A DNA stretch of 64,000 nt from Radicibacter daui. GTDB lineage: Bacteria > Pseudomonadota > Alphaproteobacteria > Radicibacterales > Radicibacteraceae. A model generated the notes under the pieces. It searched no databases. It was not told the origin of the DNA and saw nothing but the letters and a program-made list of their open reading frames with translations. Below, in pieces: positions 5,046 to 10,293 of the stretch. How positions within the stretch are numbered: the first letter of the stretch is position 1; the number at the start of each line of letters is the position of its first letter. The translations under genes and the position numbers were made by a program. The DNA is taken from positions 496,001-560,000 of the forward strand of contig CP131056.1 in NCBI GenBank assembly GCA_030657355.1, in the 5' to 3' direction.

Positions 5046-5403
5046 TTTTCCTCCCGGGCCGTCTGCTTGTTTTTGGCGCTGTCCTCATAGAGGCCGTGCC
5101 GGGCAGTTCAGCCAATCAACGGTGTCACCTAATTCGGTTTTCAGGGAGCGGAATCGCATCGGCGACCGCAACCGGAAACCGGTTTCTTTCGTTCCATCCA
5201 ATGACAGGCCCTTGTGGGCCGTCAAGCATCGTCCTTCAGGTTTCTTTTCAGGGATAACGGGTCGTGCAACCTAATCACGTATGTAACTTGCTCGTTCGAA
5301 ACTAATACTTTCTTAATATCAAAATGTTACACTCCGTTACGGTTAACAGGGGCCTGTAATTTCAAGCCTTTAGGGACGATTTGATCGGGGGCATTTGTCG
5401 AGC
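5046..5403. other. Intergenic region with LacI-type operator and AT-rich promoter zone
   Basis: A 358-bp divergent gap between a LacI-family gene (minus) and the unrecognised gene at 5404 (plus). It carries the 12-bp palindrome at 5175-5186. From about 5265 to 5360 it is markedly AT-rich for this genome, which fits promoter DNA for the plus-strand gene. I see no RNA gene or small reading frame that I can support. Confidence 0.6.
5175..5186. promoter_or_regulatory. Candidate LacI-family operator GAAACCGGTTTC
   Basis: A perfect 12-bp palindrome with a central CG pair, in the style of PurR/GntR/GalR-family operators. It lies about 130 bp upstream of the LacI-family gene that starts at 5045 on the minus strand, the usual place for autoregulation. 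Confidence 0.55.
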
Positions 5404-7074
5404 ATGTCGGGAAAGGCCGGATCGGGAAAGGTGGTCGCCCGCCTGGATCCTCTACTGGACAAGTTACCGGAATCGACGCGCACCCAGCTCTGGCGCGCCG
5501 TCGCCAGCGGGGGACTCGGCGATGGCGATACCGCCAGAGCGATCCAGAGCCTGCTTGCCGGTAAAATCAACGGTGTGCGCCACGACCATGTGCGCCGCCT
5601 GTTCCTGACCCTTTGGGACAAGTTGATGGTGCGCGATCCGCTGCTGGCCGGCGTCGCCCATCAGGCTCCCGGCCTCACCCAGTTCTATGATTTCAGCGCA
5701 CTCTGGGAAGCGCTGCTCCAGTATGAAGGCGCCGACGAGCTGCGCGAGGAAGCCGGTGCCATCCAGCAATGGATGGAGCAGCATAGCGCCGATACCCCCA
5801 TCGACGAGCTGATTCGCAGCGAGCAGGCCAAGGTCGCCCGTCGCAATCTGGCGTCGCATGCTGCCGAGCTGCTGGGCGAGTTCCTTGAGCGTTCGACCAG
5901 CGAGCAGCGCAATTTCATGTCGATCATCAATGCGCTGCGCCAGGCGCTGATGGAGCGTGACCAGCAGAGCGACCTGGCCCTCTCCTGCCGGCCGCTGCGC
6001 CATGAGGACCTGCATTATTTCGCTGCGGCGGTGGAAGCAGCCTGCCGCCTTGGACATCCATTCGAATCGATCGAGCTGCCGGCAAATGGCAAGGCCGAGG
6101 AGCCGGTTACCGTTGCCGTCTCGGCGCTCGATGCCGTGCTCGGTGGCCGGATTGCCGGGCATGATGTCGGCCTGTGGCCGCTGGGCGCCGCCTTTTTCCA
6201 GGGTTATGGCTCCGAGCTGCTGACCGCCAACGTGACCGAGCTGCCGGAGCAGCTGCAGCTGCGCCTGCGCGGGCTGTTGCCGCCGGTGGCCGCGGTCGGC
6301 TGCGCCTTCATAGAGCAGACGCTGGAACGTAACCTGACGGTGCTGGGGCGCGACAAGCATGCGCCCATGCAGTTCCCGACACCGGTACGCCGCGCGATGG
6401 TCGACTGGACGCGCCAGCTGCACTTCCTTGTGCTTGCCATCGAGCAGCTGCGTGCCGGGGCGGAGGCCGCCTCGCGCGAGCTTAACGAGAGCCTCAGCCG
6501 TATTTCCGTGGTGCTGATGCCGGAGACGCTGGCCGCCATCGACCGGCGCATCGATCTTCTGGATGTAGAGATTGCCGGGGCCGGCGATGTCGATGACATG
6601 TTGTGGTTCGGCCGTCTGTCGCCGCACATCAAGCGCCTGCGTACGCCCCGCCGGCGCCCGCTGGACATGATGGGCACGGACGAGGCACGCATCGTGGAGT
6701 CGGTAGAGACGGTGGTCCGCCGGCTGGATGTCCACCCGCCGGCCGAAGCGGTTTATTTCGAGGCGATGGCCCGGCTTGCCGCTTTCCAGACCACCTTTGG
6801 CGGCCAGTCCAACCGGGTGGTCAACCTGACCAATAAACGCCTGCTGCGTAGTGCCATCACCATGATGGACCGCCCGCGTGGCCTCTCCGCCCTCGGGCTC
6901 GATCTCGTGCACGAGATGCTGGAACTGGCTGAGGCCGAGCGCCATGATTCGCGCAACTGGCGCGATCCGCTGTTGATCCAGCTTGGCTCCACCGCCGGCT
7001 CGCTCCAGCTGGAAGGCACGCTGCCTCGCCGGGTAGCTGTACCCGATCCGCTCTCCTCGCGTCCTTTCCGGTAA
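5404..7074 (+). CDS. Unrecognised 556-residue protein upstream of a chemoreceptor
   Basis: I do not recognise a family. The product is about 556 aa, with no signal peptide, no membrane segment and no obvious catalytic motif. It looks largely alpha-helical and rich in Leu, Ala, Arg and Glu (for example AELLGEFLERSTSEQ and QLHFLVLAIEQL), so it is probably cytosolic. The ATG at 5404 is chosen; a TTG at 5395 just after a GGGGG run is an alternative that adds three residues. The reading frame is long and has the codon character of its neighbours, so it is a real gene. A methyl-accepting chemotaxis gene follows on the same strand after 144 bp, but a functional link is only a guess. Confidence 0.75.
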   Translation: MSGKAGSGKVVARLDPLLDKLPESTRTQLWRAVASGGLGDGDTARAIQSLLAGKINGVRHDHVRRLFLTLWDKLMVRDPLLAGVAHQAPGLTQFYDFSALWEALLQYEGADELREEAGAIQQWMEQHSADTPIDELIRSEQAKVARRNLASHAAELLGEFLERSTSEQRNFMSIINALRQALMERDQQSDLALSCRPLRHEDLHYFAAAVEAACRLGHPFESIELPANGKAEEPVTVAVSALDAVLGGRIAGHDVGLWPLGAAFFQGYGSELLTANVTELPEQLQLRLRGLLPPVAAVGCAFIEQTLERNLTVLGRDKHAPMQFPTPVRRAMVDWTRQLHFLVLAIEQLRAGAEAASRELNESLSRISVVLMPETLAAIDRRIDLLDVEIAGAGDVDDMLWFGRLSPHIKRLRTPRRRPLDMMGTDEARIVESVETVVRRLDVHPPAEAVYFEAMARLAAFQTTFGGQSNRVVNLTNKRLLRSAITMMDRPRGLSALGLDLVHEMLELAEAERHDSRNWRDPLLIQLGSTAGSLQLEGTLPRRVAVPDPLSSRPFR

Positions 7075-7218
7075 AATCCGCCCGTTTGTAAATGGAACGA
7101 GGCCCGGCGCTTACAAATTTTTGCCAAGTTGGGCAATGCGCCCCCCGGCCGTTACAGCCGAAGATGCAGCAAGCCCGTCACGCCGGGTCCTCCACTCTCT
7201 CGCACAAAGAGAGGCTGC

Positions 7219-9318
7219 ATGCGTATTTCGACCAAGCTGCTCCAGCTTTCAGCCGGGTATAGCGGCGCAATCATCGTTCTTGGTGGCCTGTTGTGGGCTC
7301 TTGGGGTCGAGGTCAACAAGTCAAGCATCCGGGCCGACCGATCATTATCCCTGCTGGGCGCGACGGAAGAGCTGAAACGCATGGCGGACCGCATCAGTCT
7401 TGCGGCCATGGACAGCCTTGTTGATTCCGCCGCCGGAACGATTACGCCGGAGCGCCAGCAGCGTCTGGCGGAAAGCAGGAAAAGCGTCGCCGACGCCATT
7501 GCCACGCTTCGCTCCGCAAATGTCGGCGAAGAGGCCGCCATCACGTCGGTGGAAGGCGGCTTTGCCAAGCTGGACGCGGCCATCACCCAGGATCTCCAAC
7601 ACGCGCTGGAGCAGTTTGGCAAGGCAGATGATGCCTTTGCCAAACTTGATGACGCAATGGATGCGGTCGGCGATGAGCTGACGGGGGCTGTCGAAAAGCT
7701 GGCCGACGGTGTTCAGGCTGCCGTTTCCAAGGCGAGTGCCGATGGCGATATCATGGCGACCAATCAGCTGCTGGGCTCGGTCGGCCATATCGAGGAAATG
7801 CGGGCCGACGTGCAGGCCATCACGCTCGCGGCGATGGATACGATCATTGACCGTGATGCCGGCGAGATCATCGAAGGCCGTGACAAGATTGTGGAAAGGG
7901 CCGTCGAGGCCGTTGAGCAAAGTCTGCAGGATCCCTTTTTTGCGACCTTGCCGGACGGGCCCGGCCTCGTGTCCAGGATCAGGGAGACTCTTGCGGCACA
8001 GCGCAGCAACTTCTTTGATACCCTGCAGCCGCTCGTTGTCAGCCAGGGCAAGGCAAAGGAAGTGTTCGATCGGCTTGATGATGAAATCGACGCCGCGTCC
8101 GATGCTATCGGTGCCGGGCTCGAAGATGTCAGCACGGCCATCAGCACCGAAACCCGCGAGGCACGGCTGAGAGCGCAGAGCCGCGGCGCCGCACTGCTGC
8201 GCTGGGCGGAAATTACGGCGGCACTTGTGCTGCTTGCCGGCGCCGTTTTTTCGCTATTGCTGCGCCGGAACATCGCGCGTTCGCTTGCCGACCTCTCCAC
8301 TTCGATGCGTGAACTGGCCGCCGGACGGCTGGTCGAAAAGATCGCCGGTGAAGGTCGCCGTGACGAGATTGGCTCCATGGCGGAAACGGTTATCGTCTTC
8401 CGCGACAACCTGCGGGAAAATATCAAGCTGCGCGAGGAGCGCGAAGGGCAGGAGAAGGCGGCCGAAGCCGAAAGGCACCGCCTCATGCAGACGGTGGCCA
8501 GCGAGCTTCAGGCAGCCATCGGAGGCATAGCCAGTTCCGTCGACAGCGCCGTAGGTGAACTGCGCCAGGTGTCGGACAAGGTCAATGACGCTGCCGGCGA
8601 TACCAGCCGCCGCAGCGAAACGGCCTCTTCCGATGCCGACGACACCCGGGCGGCCATCCAGACCGTAGCCGCAGCAGCGGAGGAGATGACGGCAACCATC
8701 GGCGGGGTGCGGGAGCAGACGGGTGAGGCTGCCCGTCTTGCCGACAGCACGCGCGATATTGCCCGGACGACAGAGGGCAACGTGGCCCGGCTGAGCGAGG
8801 CTGCCCGCTCGATCCGCGAGGTTGTGTCGCTCATCAATGCGGTGGCGGACCAGACCAATCTGCTGGCGCTCAACGCTACCATCGAGGCCGCCCGTGCCGG
8901 AGAAGCGGGCAAGGGTTTTGCCGTGGTGGCGCAGGAAGTGAAGTCTCTCGCGACCCAGACCGGGCGGGCAACGGACGAGATTGCCGGCAAGATCGACGAG
9001 ATCGGCTCGATTACCGATCAGGTGGTCAAGGATGTCAGCGAGATCATCGCTGCCATCGGTTCGCTGGCCGAGGTCAATGGCGACGTGATGTCGTCGGTAT
9101 CCCAGCAGACCGAGGCCACCGAGGAGATGTCCCGCAGCACACGCAAGGTCTCCGACGCCATCGTGGCGGTGGCGGATAATCTGGGCTCCATCCGCTCCGT
9201 CAGCGCCGAAACCCGCAACGCCGCCGACGCCATCGTGTCGGCAGCCAACACGCTCGCACGGCTCTCCCGGGATCTTGCGGGCGCCGTAGACCAGCAGGTC
9301 AAGCGCCTGCTGGCCTGA
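7219..9318 (+). CDS. Methyl-accepting chemotaxis protein with HAMP domain
   Basis: Transmembrane chemoreceptor (699 aa) that would signal to CheA/CheW. Membrane helix 1 spans about residues 12-31 and helix 2 about 328-350. The periplasmic part between them is about 290 residues and helical. A HAMP domain follows (about 350-402), then the cytoplasmic signalling domain with the conserved hairpin tip around 546-580 (TNLLALNATIEAARAGEAGK, then GFAVVAQEVKSLA). The start at 7219 is preceded by AGAGAGG; an upstream in-frame ATG at 7129 adds 30 residues with no membrane character. The sensor region contains two related segments about 145 residues apart (LAAMDSLVDSAAG and LAAMDTIIDRDAG). There is no C-terminal CheR-tethering pentapeptide. 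The ligand is unknown. Confidence 0.93.
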   Translation: MRISTKLLQLSAGYSGAIIVLGGLLWALGVEVNKSSIRADRSLSLLGATEELKRMADRISLAAMDSLVDSAAGTITPERQQRLAESRKSVADAIATLRSANVGEEAAITSVEGGFAKLDAAITQDLQHALEQFGKADDAFAKLDDAMDAVGDELTGAVEKLADGVQAAVSKASADGDIMATNQLLGSVGHIEEMRADVQAITLAAMDTIIDRDAGEIIEGRDKIVERAVEAVEQSLQDPFFATLPDGPGLVSRIRETLAAQRSNFFDTLQPLVVSQGKAKEVFDRLDDEIDAASDAIGAGLEDVSTAISTETREARLRAQSRGAALLRWAEITAALVLLAGAVFSLLLRRNIARSLADLSTSMRELAAGRLVEKIAGEGRRDEIGSMAETVIVFRDNLRENIKLREEREGQEKAAEAERHRLMQTVASELQAAIGGIASSVDSAVGELRQVSDKVNDAAGDTSRRSETASSDADDTRAAIQTVAAAAEEMTATIGGVREQTGEAARLADSTRDIARTTEGNVARLSEAARSIREVVSLINAVADQTNLLALNATIEAARAGEAGKGFAVVAQEVKSLATQTGRATDEIAGKIDEIGSITDQVVKDVSEIIAAIGSLAEVNGDVMSSVSQQTEATEEMSRSTRKVSDAIVAVADNLGSIRSVSAETRNAADAIVSAANTLARLSRDLAGAVDQQVKRLLA

Positions 9319-9342
9319 GCCAGACGCCCGTCCACTCCGGTG

Positions 9343-10293
9343 TCAGCCGCCTTCGGTTGCCTTCTTCGGTGTTTCCGGCTGGGCCTGGCGGGCGTCGATA
9401 ACCTTGCGGCGAATGCCCCGGGTACGGGTGAAGAAGGCGTGCAGCTGCTCGCCGTCTCCCCAGCGGATGGCCCGTTGCAGCGCCGTCAGATCCTCGCTGA
9501 AGCGCTGCAGGATCTCCAGCACCGCCCCGCGATTGTGCAGGAAGACGTCGCGCCACATGGTGGGGTCGGAAGCGGCAATACGGGTGAAGTCGCGGAAACC
9601 GCCGGCCGAGAACTTGATGACTTCCTGCGCGCTTGCCGTTTCCAGATCCTGCGCCGTGCCCACGATGGTGTAGGCGATGAGATGCGGCACGTGGCTGGTG
9701 ACGGCCAGCACGCGGTCGTGATGGCCGGCTTCCATGATCTCGATGTTGGAGCCGCAGCCTTTCCACAGCGCCTCAACCTTGGCCACGGCGGCAGGATCGC
9801 TACCTTCCGGCGGTGTCAGGATGCACCAGCGGTCGATATAAAGCTCGGCAAAGCCGGCCTCCGGGCCGCTATGCTCGGTACCGGCCACCGGATGCGCCGG
9901 CACCAGCGCCACCCCTGCGGGCAGTGAAGGAGAAAGATCGGCGATCACCGAGGCCTTGGTGGAGCCGGTGTCGCTGACGATGGCACCGGGCTTGAGGGCC
10001 GGGCCAATGGCTTCGCCGATGGCCTTGTAGGCGCCCATCGGGGTGCAGATCACGACAAGGTCGGCCTCACGCACCGCATCGGCCGGATCGATATAGCCTT
10101 CGTCAATGAAGCCGAGCTTCAGCGAGGTATCGATGGTCGGCTGCGTGCGGGCACTGCCCACCACCTTGCGGGCAAGCCCCCACTTCTTGATCGCACGGCC
10201 GAGAGACGAGCCGATCAGGCCGAGGCCGATCAGCGCGACAGTATCGAAAACCGGCGCGTCGACAGCCGGGTGATGGGAAATGCCGGCAGCCAT
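9343..10293 (-). CDS. tyrC: Prephenate/arogenate dehydrogenase
   Basis: NAD(P)-dependent TyrA-family enzyme (316 aa) of tyrosine biosynthesis, which oxidatively decarboxylates prephenate and/or arogenate. An N-terminal Rossmann motif (VALIGLGLIGSSLGRA, about residues 19-34) is followed by the catalytic-histidine segment AHPVAGTEHSG and the helical dimerisation domain (SHVPHLIAYTIVG). There is no chorismate mutase domain in this protein; that activity is encoded two genes upstream. The start codon overlaps the stop of hisC by one base (position 10293), so the two are translationally coupled. The monofunctional cyclohexadienyl dehydrogenase type is usual in Alphaproteobacteria; substrate preference cannot be read from sequence. 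Confidence 0.93.
   Translation of the reverse strand: MAAGISHHPAVDAPVFDTVALIGLGLIGSSLGRAIKKWGLARKVVGSARTQPTIDTSLKLGFIDEGYIDPADAVREADLVVICTPMGAYKAIGEAIGPALKPGAIVSDTGSTKASVIADLSPSLPAGVALVPAHPVAGTEHSGPEAGFAELYIDRWCILTPPEGSDPAAVAKVEALWKGCGSNIEIMEAGHHDRVLAVTSHVPHLIAYTIVGTAQDLETASAQEVIKFSAGGFRDFTRIAASDPTMWRDVFLHNRGAVLEILQRFSEDLTALQRAIRWGDGEQLHAFFTRTRGIRRKVIDARQAQPETPKKATEGG

Follow-up and report, generated by a model that had tools for sequence, protein, structure and literature searches.

A protein encoded beside a chemoreceptor gene of Radicibacter daui and its unnamed, predicted all-helical family in Alphaproteobacteria

In the window, a 64,000-nucleotide stretch of the Radicibacter daui genome, a gene that precedes a chemoreceptor gene (Table 1) proved to be real, to belong to a real protein family and to encode a protein with a predicted all-helical fold. 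It is best explained as a long-diverged copy in a lineage-specific paralog family of Alphaproteobacteria. The N-terminal module of this family also occurs alone, and in that form it is linked to a cluster of two-component genes. The place beside the chemoreceptor gene is not kept in the relatives. The family is lineage-restricted and new; its putative role is that of docking or scaffold proteins with the N-terminal module as their shared part.

Table 1. Features of the family gene and its surroundings (positions in the window)
Feature	Position	Strand	Basis
Undescribed helical family gene, 556 aa (559 aa from TTG 5395)	5404..7074	+	Open frame, paralogs, held-out profile, model
N-terminal module, approximately residues 10–205; occurs alone in Azospirillum short forms	5431..6018	+	Alignment; boundaries approximate
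Signature stretch, residues 56–67: N56, R59, R64 and R65 invariant, F67 nearly so	5569..5604	+	Alignments of 13 and 49 members
C-terminal conserved stretch, residues 457–520, with R457, G466, E512 and W519	6772..6963	+	Alignments of 13 and 49 members
Methyl-accepting chemotaxis protein (MCP), 699 aa; neighbour outside any conserved pair	7219..9318	+	Pfam HAMP and MCPsignal; neighbour count
Antisense open frame, 493 aa, judged not to be a gene	5464..6945	-	No Pfam match, no family-profile match

An unnamed family and its predicted fold

Read from its ATG, the gene comprises 556 codons and a stop. The alternative TTG start lies nearer to a GGGGG stretch than the ATG does, and either may be the true start. 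Two paralogs were found in the same genome, one (L002) matching at E 2.3e-17 with 31% identity over residues 18–260 and the other (L003) at E 4.6e-8 with 23% identity over residues 15–533; a fourth own-genome match (E 0.47), which contains a stop, was judged to be chance. A profile held out from both the window protein and L002, and thus built from 47 other members, gave a full-length match to the window protein (residues 10–529 of 556, E 3.4e-31 when scaled to 100,000 sequences); the best of 200 shuffled copies used as a control reached E 6.9. These matches bear out the first-pass annotation, made from the letters alone, in its claim that the frame is a real gene.

Seven columns are invariant in the alignment of 49 members (N56, R59, R64, R65, D96, R457 and W519 in the numbering of the window protein), and the equivalent columns are invariant in the alignment of 13 members as well; both alignments contain the window protein, which carries the N..R....RR signature and the C-terminal Trp. 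On these comparisons the window protein is to be placed in the unnamed family as a very diverged member. In a tree computed by a quick method its branch is long, at 2.45 changes per column, and its placement unsure. The other own-genome paralog L003 (G000:C1:1833724-1835262) is 57% identical to the member L012 of genome G158, which is of another taxonomic family, shown by the named scan to be Azospirillaceae, and groups with it inside an Azospirillaceae clade, which suggests that this copy may have been acquired by horizontal transfer.

The family is found in few of the genomes sampled broadly and in most of those sampled from the Azospirillaceae. Queried with the window protein, 8 of 387 genomes of its class matched (5 of 264 genera), and with the 13-member alignment, a profile that includes the window protein, 10 of 387 (6 of 264 genera); in a phylum-wide sample 3 of 397 genomes matched, the protein's own included. 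The window genome was the sole representative of its order among the genomes searched. Among the Azospirillaceae, a family profile (A3) found matches in 73 of 82 genomes, spread over 10 of 13 genera. The named scan run with the window protein alone produced 13 pattern stretches, none of which was confirmed, and no relative or close ortholog; the 47 loci of the named scan, counted from titles, comprise 38 from Azospirillum, four from Zavarzinia and five from other metagenome-assembled genomes (MAGs) of Rhodospirillales or Alphaproteobacteria. Eleven plasmid records matched the window protein, all of them from Azospirillum and labelled ‘hypothetical protein’ where annotated, and no phage record did. 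The Azospirillum hypothetical proteins AZOLI_RS22580 (WP_014249502.1) and AZL_RS26945 (WP_042445927.1) belong to the same family, with tblastn matches to residues 13–213 of the window protein at E 5e-6 and 7e-6, respectively, but differ from it in being only ~26% identical.

None of the libraries searched holds a model for the family. Pfam gave no family at E ≤ 1 for any of 13 members, the window protein included; NCBIfam gave no significant match for the same 13, the best (TorS, E 0.11) being judged chance; PADLOC returned nothing for all 13; PHROGs, searched with the window protein only, gave no significant match (best E 0.034); and the best match of the 49-member profile among PDB sequences, a glutamate racemase at E 0.049, was likewise set aside as chance. 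No enzyme family or motif was found with Pfam, NCBIfam, PHROGs or PADLOC. A literature search, which was thin and is not proof, returned nothing on the family or on the names AZOLI_RS22580 and AZL_RS26945. The first-pass annotation had recognised no motif and proposed an undescribed family; both claims hold in these searches, with members in Azospirillaceae and Zavarzinia and no curated model. A paralog family carried by most Azospirillaceae genomes, including those of the studied plant-growth-promoting genus Azospirillum, is without a name or a model in the libraries searched.

The peak hydropathy of the window protein over 19 residues is 1.25, and thus no membrane span is predicted. AlphaFold modelled it (from 13 sequences) with 71% helix at a pLDDT of 75.0 and a pTM of 0.61, residues 218–275 being largely below pLDDT 50. 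The member L014 (from 49 sequences) was modelled as all-helical at a pLDDT of 89.5 and a pTM of 0.84, and the two models agree in helix versus non-helix at 448 of 524 aligned positions. Foldseek found nothing below E 0.001 in the PDB for either model (best 1.5e-2 for the window protein and 4.6e-3 for L014), nor in BFVD, searched with the L014 model only. VIA re-alignment reached at best Z 7.6 for the window model and Z 9.2 for the L014 model, to solenoid-like parts of eukaryotic scaffolds; the best row (9duo_C, Z 9.2, rmsd 4.9 over 171 residues) is within the chance range for helical models, and rows below Z 10 were treated as helical background. As anticipated from the sequence, the protein is predicted to be soluble and helical, and the structure prediction proposed at that time as a check gave, for the member L014, an all-helical model with no clear PDB match.

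As far as structure goes, the family fold is predicted to be all-helical and solenoid-like, and we claim no new fold. The family resembles alpha-solenoid scaffolds of the HEAT, ARM and TPR kind in being almost all helix, long, soluble and without a catalytic motif, and its models overlap weakly with PELP1, the MUN domain of Munc13 and importin beta. It differs from them in that the repeat models of Pfam match none of the 13 members, Foldseek gave nothing below E 0.001 for either of the two models, and the helices of the window model are irregular in length, reaching ~34 residues.

Short forms and the two-component gene cluster

Some relatives consist of ~210–380 aa, by their more credible starts, and only the N-terminal module of these short forms matches the family profile (positions 14–217 or less). 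We examined 14 short-form loci, chosen for short open frames among the Azospirillaceae matches listed. In 13 of them the genes for a DUF3369 histidine kinase and for an OmpR-type regulator adjoin the short form, and 12 (L167, L186, L187 and L195–L203) also contain a HAMP-SpoIIE phosphatase, SiaC, DUF6272 (SiaB) and a second kinase. The gene order in these 12 is HAMP-SpoIIE phosphatase and OmpR-type regulator on one strand and, on the other, kinase, SiaC, DUF6272 (SiaB) and DUF3369 kinase; next come the short form and, after it, a pair of small genes. In L167 the products of both small genes have hydrophobic first ~20 residues. The 12 genomes are all of Azospirillaceae (G754, G764, G781, G784, G787, G756, G791, G757, G786, G768, G751 and G766). 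The Pfam domains of the cluster were confirmed in L167, L187 and L204, and the genes of the other loci were assigned by blastp to those proteins. In the locus L204 (G778:C1, 4756-8750) the cluster is reduced to the DUF3369 kinase and the OmpR-type regulator, and the short form is followed, at a distance of 39 bp, by a REC-GGDEF gene; L205, on a 4.1-kb contig, is without any cluster gene. Since the short forms of L187 and L203 have diverged to 39–42% identity with that of L167 and the cluster has been kept, the linkage has lasted.

The cluster genes recall the SiaABC(D) threonine-phosphorylation pathway of Pseudomonas aeruginosa, which, as far as outlined in PMC7647112 and PMC8457831, comprises the phosphatase SiaA, the DUF6272 kinase SiaB, and SiaC. 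The likeness lies in the HAMP-SpoIIE, DUF6272 and SiaC genes that adjoin the short forms in 12 of 14 loci. The differences are that the family protein has no match among the Sia components and that DUF6272 has no match in the window genome, in a search in which G754 and G781, serving as positive controls, did match. Co-location with siaB and siaC was found, accordingly, for the short-form relatives and not for the window protein. A signalling partner is well founded only for the short forms; for the window protein it would follow by homology. Should the N-terminal module act as a signalling adaptor, the conserved short-form locus would offer a compact test of the coupling of a Sia-type switch to a histidine kinase outside Pseudomonas.

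Long forms and possible functions

Our leading reading, put forward tentatively, is that the window protein may be a cytosolic helical adaptor or scaffold. A signalling protein would be the most likely partner docked by its N-terminal module (~200 residues, with the invariant N..R....RR patch), and the long helical array at the C-terminal end would present a variable surface to other partners; the adjoining chemoreceptor would not be needed. The protein binding, the signalling nature of the partner and the validity for the window copy are inferred. The reading is favoured by the following: the confident all-helical model of L014, with its resemblances to solenoid scaffolds and the lack of an enzyme family or motif; the short forms that keep only the N-terminal module beside two-component genes; and some long forms that adjoin signalling genes. 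In L012 a response regulator, with its receiver domain confirmed, overlaps the start of the family gene by 4 bp, and L154 shows the same arrangement; a hemerythrin-REC-GGDEF gene lies 21 bp downstream of the long form in L166, and in L190 a PAS histidine kinase gene precedes the long form by 63 bp.

The adaptor reading is weakened by the absence of a family-wide signalling enrichment. Among 50 representatives (47 at <75% identity plus three short forms), signalling genes made up 9 of 91 immediate neighbours versus 26 of 362 genes lying farther off (Fisher p 0.38), and a general signalling link for the whole family was rejected on this result. Receiver, histidine-kinase, GGDEF, SpoIIE and MCP genes were counted as signalling, genes under 100 aa were dropped, and receivers, kinases, GGDEF domains and phosphatases were sought with home-made profiles from few seeds, with misses possible in both classes. 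It is weakened further by the varied contexts of the long forms, by L205 with no cluster gene, by the lack of a DUF6272 match in the window genome and by the weakness of the solenoid resemblance.

Alternatively, the family could be a set of fast-evolving accessory proteins of housekeeping or metabolism with no signalling role, each paralog doing something different, which we consider possible though doubtful. Paralog identities are only ~17–31%, signalling genes are not enriched overall, and the long forms stand in many unrelated gene contexts that vary by lineage. One Azospirillum lineage precedes a gene that we take, from its N-terminal sequence, to be dnaN; another follows what, read in the same way, is presumably a phosphoribosyltransferase gene; and L002 of the window genome lies between genes whose N-terminal sequences we take for ilvC and mreB. 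Four loci from uncultured Rhodospirillales MAGs (L063, L068, L087 and L089) have the family gene immediately ahead of cobT; in two of them it stands between cobS and cobT and overlaps the latter by 4 bp (the CobT domain was confirmed in L068 and the upstream CobS domain in L089). In this lineage the protein could be, for example, a cobaltochelatase helper. Against such a role, in 13 of 14 loci the short forms are tied, across considerable divergence, to the two-component cluster, and none of the members examined from Zavarzinia, Azospirillum and the window genome lies beside cobT.

A bolder version of the adaptor reading, which we hold to be decidedly unlikely, would make the N-terminal module a new docking domain. 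Alone, in Azospirillum, it would be a dedicated component of a SiaB/SiaC partner switch wired to the DUF3369 histidine kinase; when fused to the helical array, it would form scaffolds that link this kind of phosphosignal to many outputs, the window copy having been recruited beside a chemoreceptor.

The invariant residues N56, R59, R64 and R65 could instead form a patch for solenoid-type binding of DNA or RNA, and some of the weak structural matches, Nop9 and FANCI for instance, are indeed solenoids that bind nucleic acids. Protein-binding solenoids dominate the same weak list, however, the protein over its full length has a slight acidic excess (64 K+R versus 73 D+E), and the arginines, paired with the invariant D96, may be structural. 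Nucleic-acid binding is in our view improbable.

The adjoining chemoreceptor and the opposite strand

The first-pass annotation gave a distance of 144 bp from the gene to a same-strand chemoreceptor gene downstream, which is exact when measured to the ATG of the MCP gene behind AGAGAGG. It treated the two as a pair and named an unconserved pairing as a refuting result. The pairing was not recovered in the relatives. We surveyed 100 stretches (the window and sets of 12, 47 and 40 loci); with identical copies removed, these contain 90 distinct family genes, among which are fragments and two frameshifted copies. Only one of the 177 immediate neighbours of these genes is MCP-like, and it is the window's own; four second neighbours are MCP-like, and an MCP-like gene occurs anywhere in the stretch, within ~6–8 kb, in seven cases, the window included, a number that is unremarkable because the genomes are rich in MCPs (43 MCPsignal matches in the 5.06 Mb of the window genome). 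The gene calls behind these counts and behind the signalling comparison were crude, being longest open frames with a weight from codon-position GC, and they contain errors: a 996-aa ‘fusion’ in L166 is overlong, and the N-terminus of a 412-aa frame in L187 probably is.

The window protein might still be a dedicated partner of this chemoreceptor, for instance an accessory protein of the signalling array, given the shared strand, the short gap and the result of a promoter and terminator scan of 5046–9400, which found no promoter-like site and nothing inside the 144-bp gap, in itself an uninformative result. We regard this as very unlikely and have rejected the chemoreceptor as the partner: the pairing is absent from the neighbours of the relatives, both paralogs in the window genome are without MCP neighbours, and with so many MCP genes a chance adjacency in one of 90 family genes is to be expected (as a rough estimate, ~1–2% per gene). 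The likeness to receptor-associated chemotaxis proteins such as CheW, CheA and CheR ends with the adjoining MCP gene; the family differs from them in having no Pfam match and no conserved MCP adjacency. For the window the result is mostly corrective, in that the pairing with the receptor gives no ground for a chemotaxis role. HAMP and MCPsignal are the only domains of this MCP that pass Pfam cut-offs; by eye, its sensor region (window 7350–7900) seems to contain two similar helical repeats, AAMD-S-LVD and AAMD-T-IID.

That the gene is a chance long frame in high-GC DNA opposite another gene, as the overlapping antisense frame might suggest, is refuted by the held-out profile, which matches in this strand and frame, and has practically no probability left. 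The antisense frame is absent among the 17 domain lines listed for the family profile, in which the three non-shuffled rows are all the window protein or L002. Because of the paralog matches and the held-out profile match we take the forward frame as coding and its antisense counterpart as not. With a GC content of 0.73/0.45/0.79 at the three codon positions of the gene, we judge the antisense frame to be a by-product of the high GC at the first and third codon positions.
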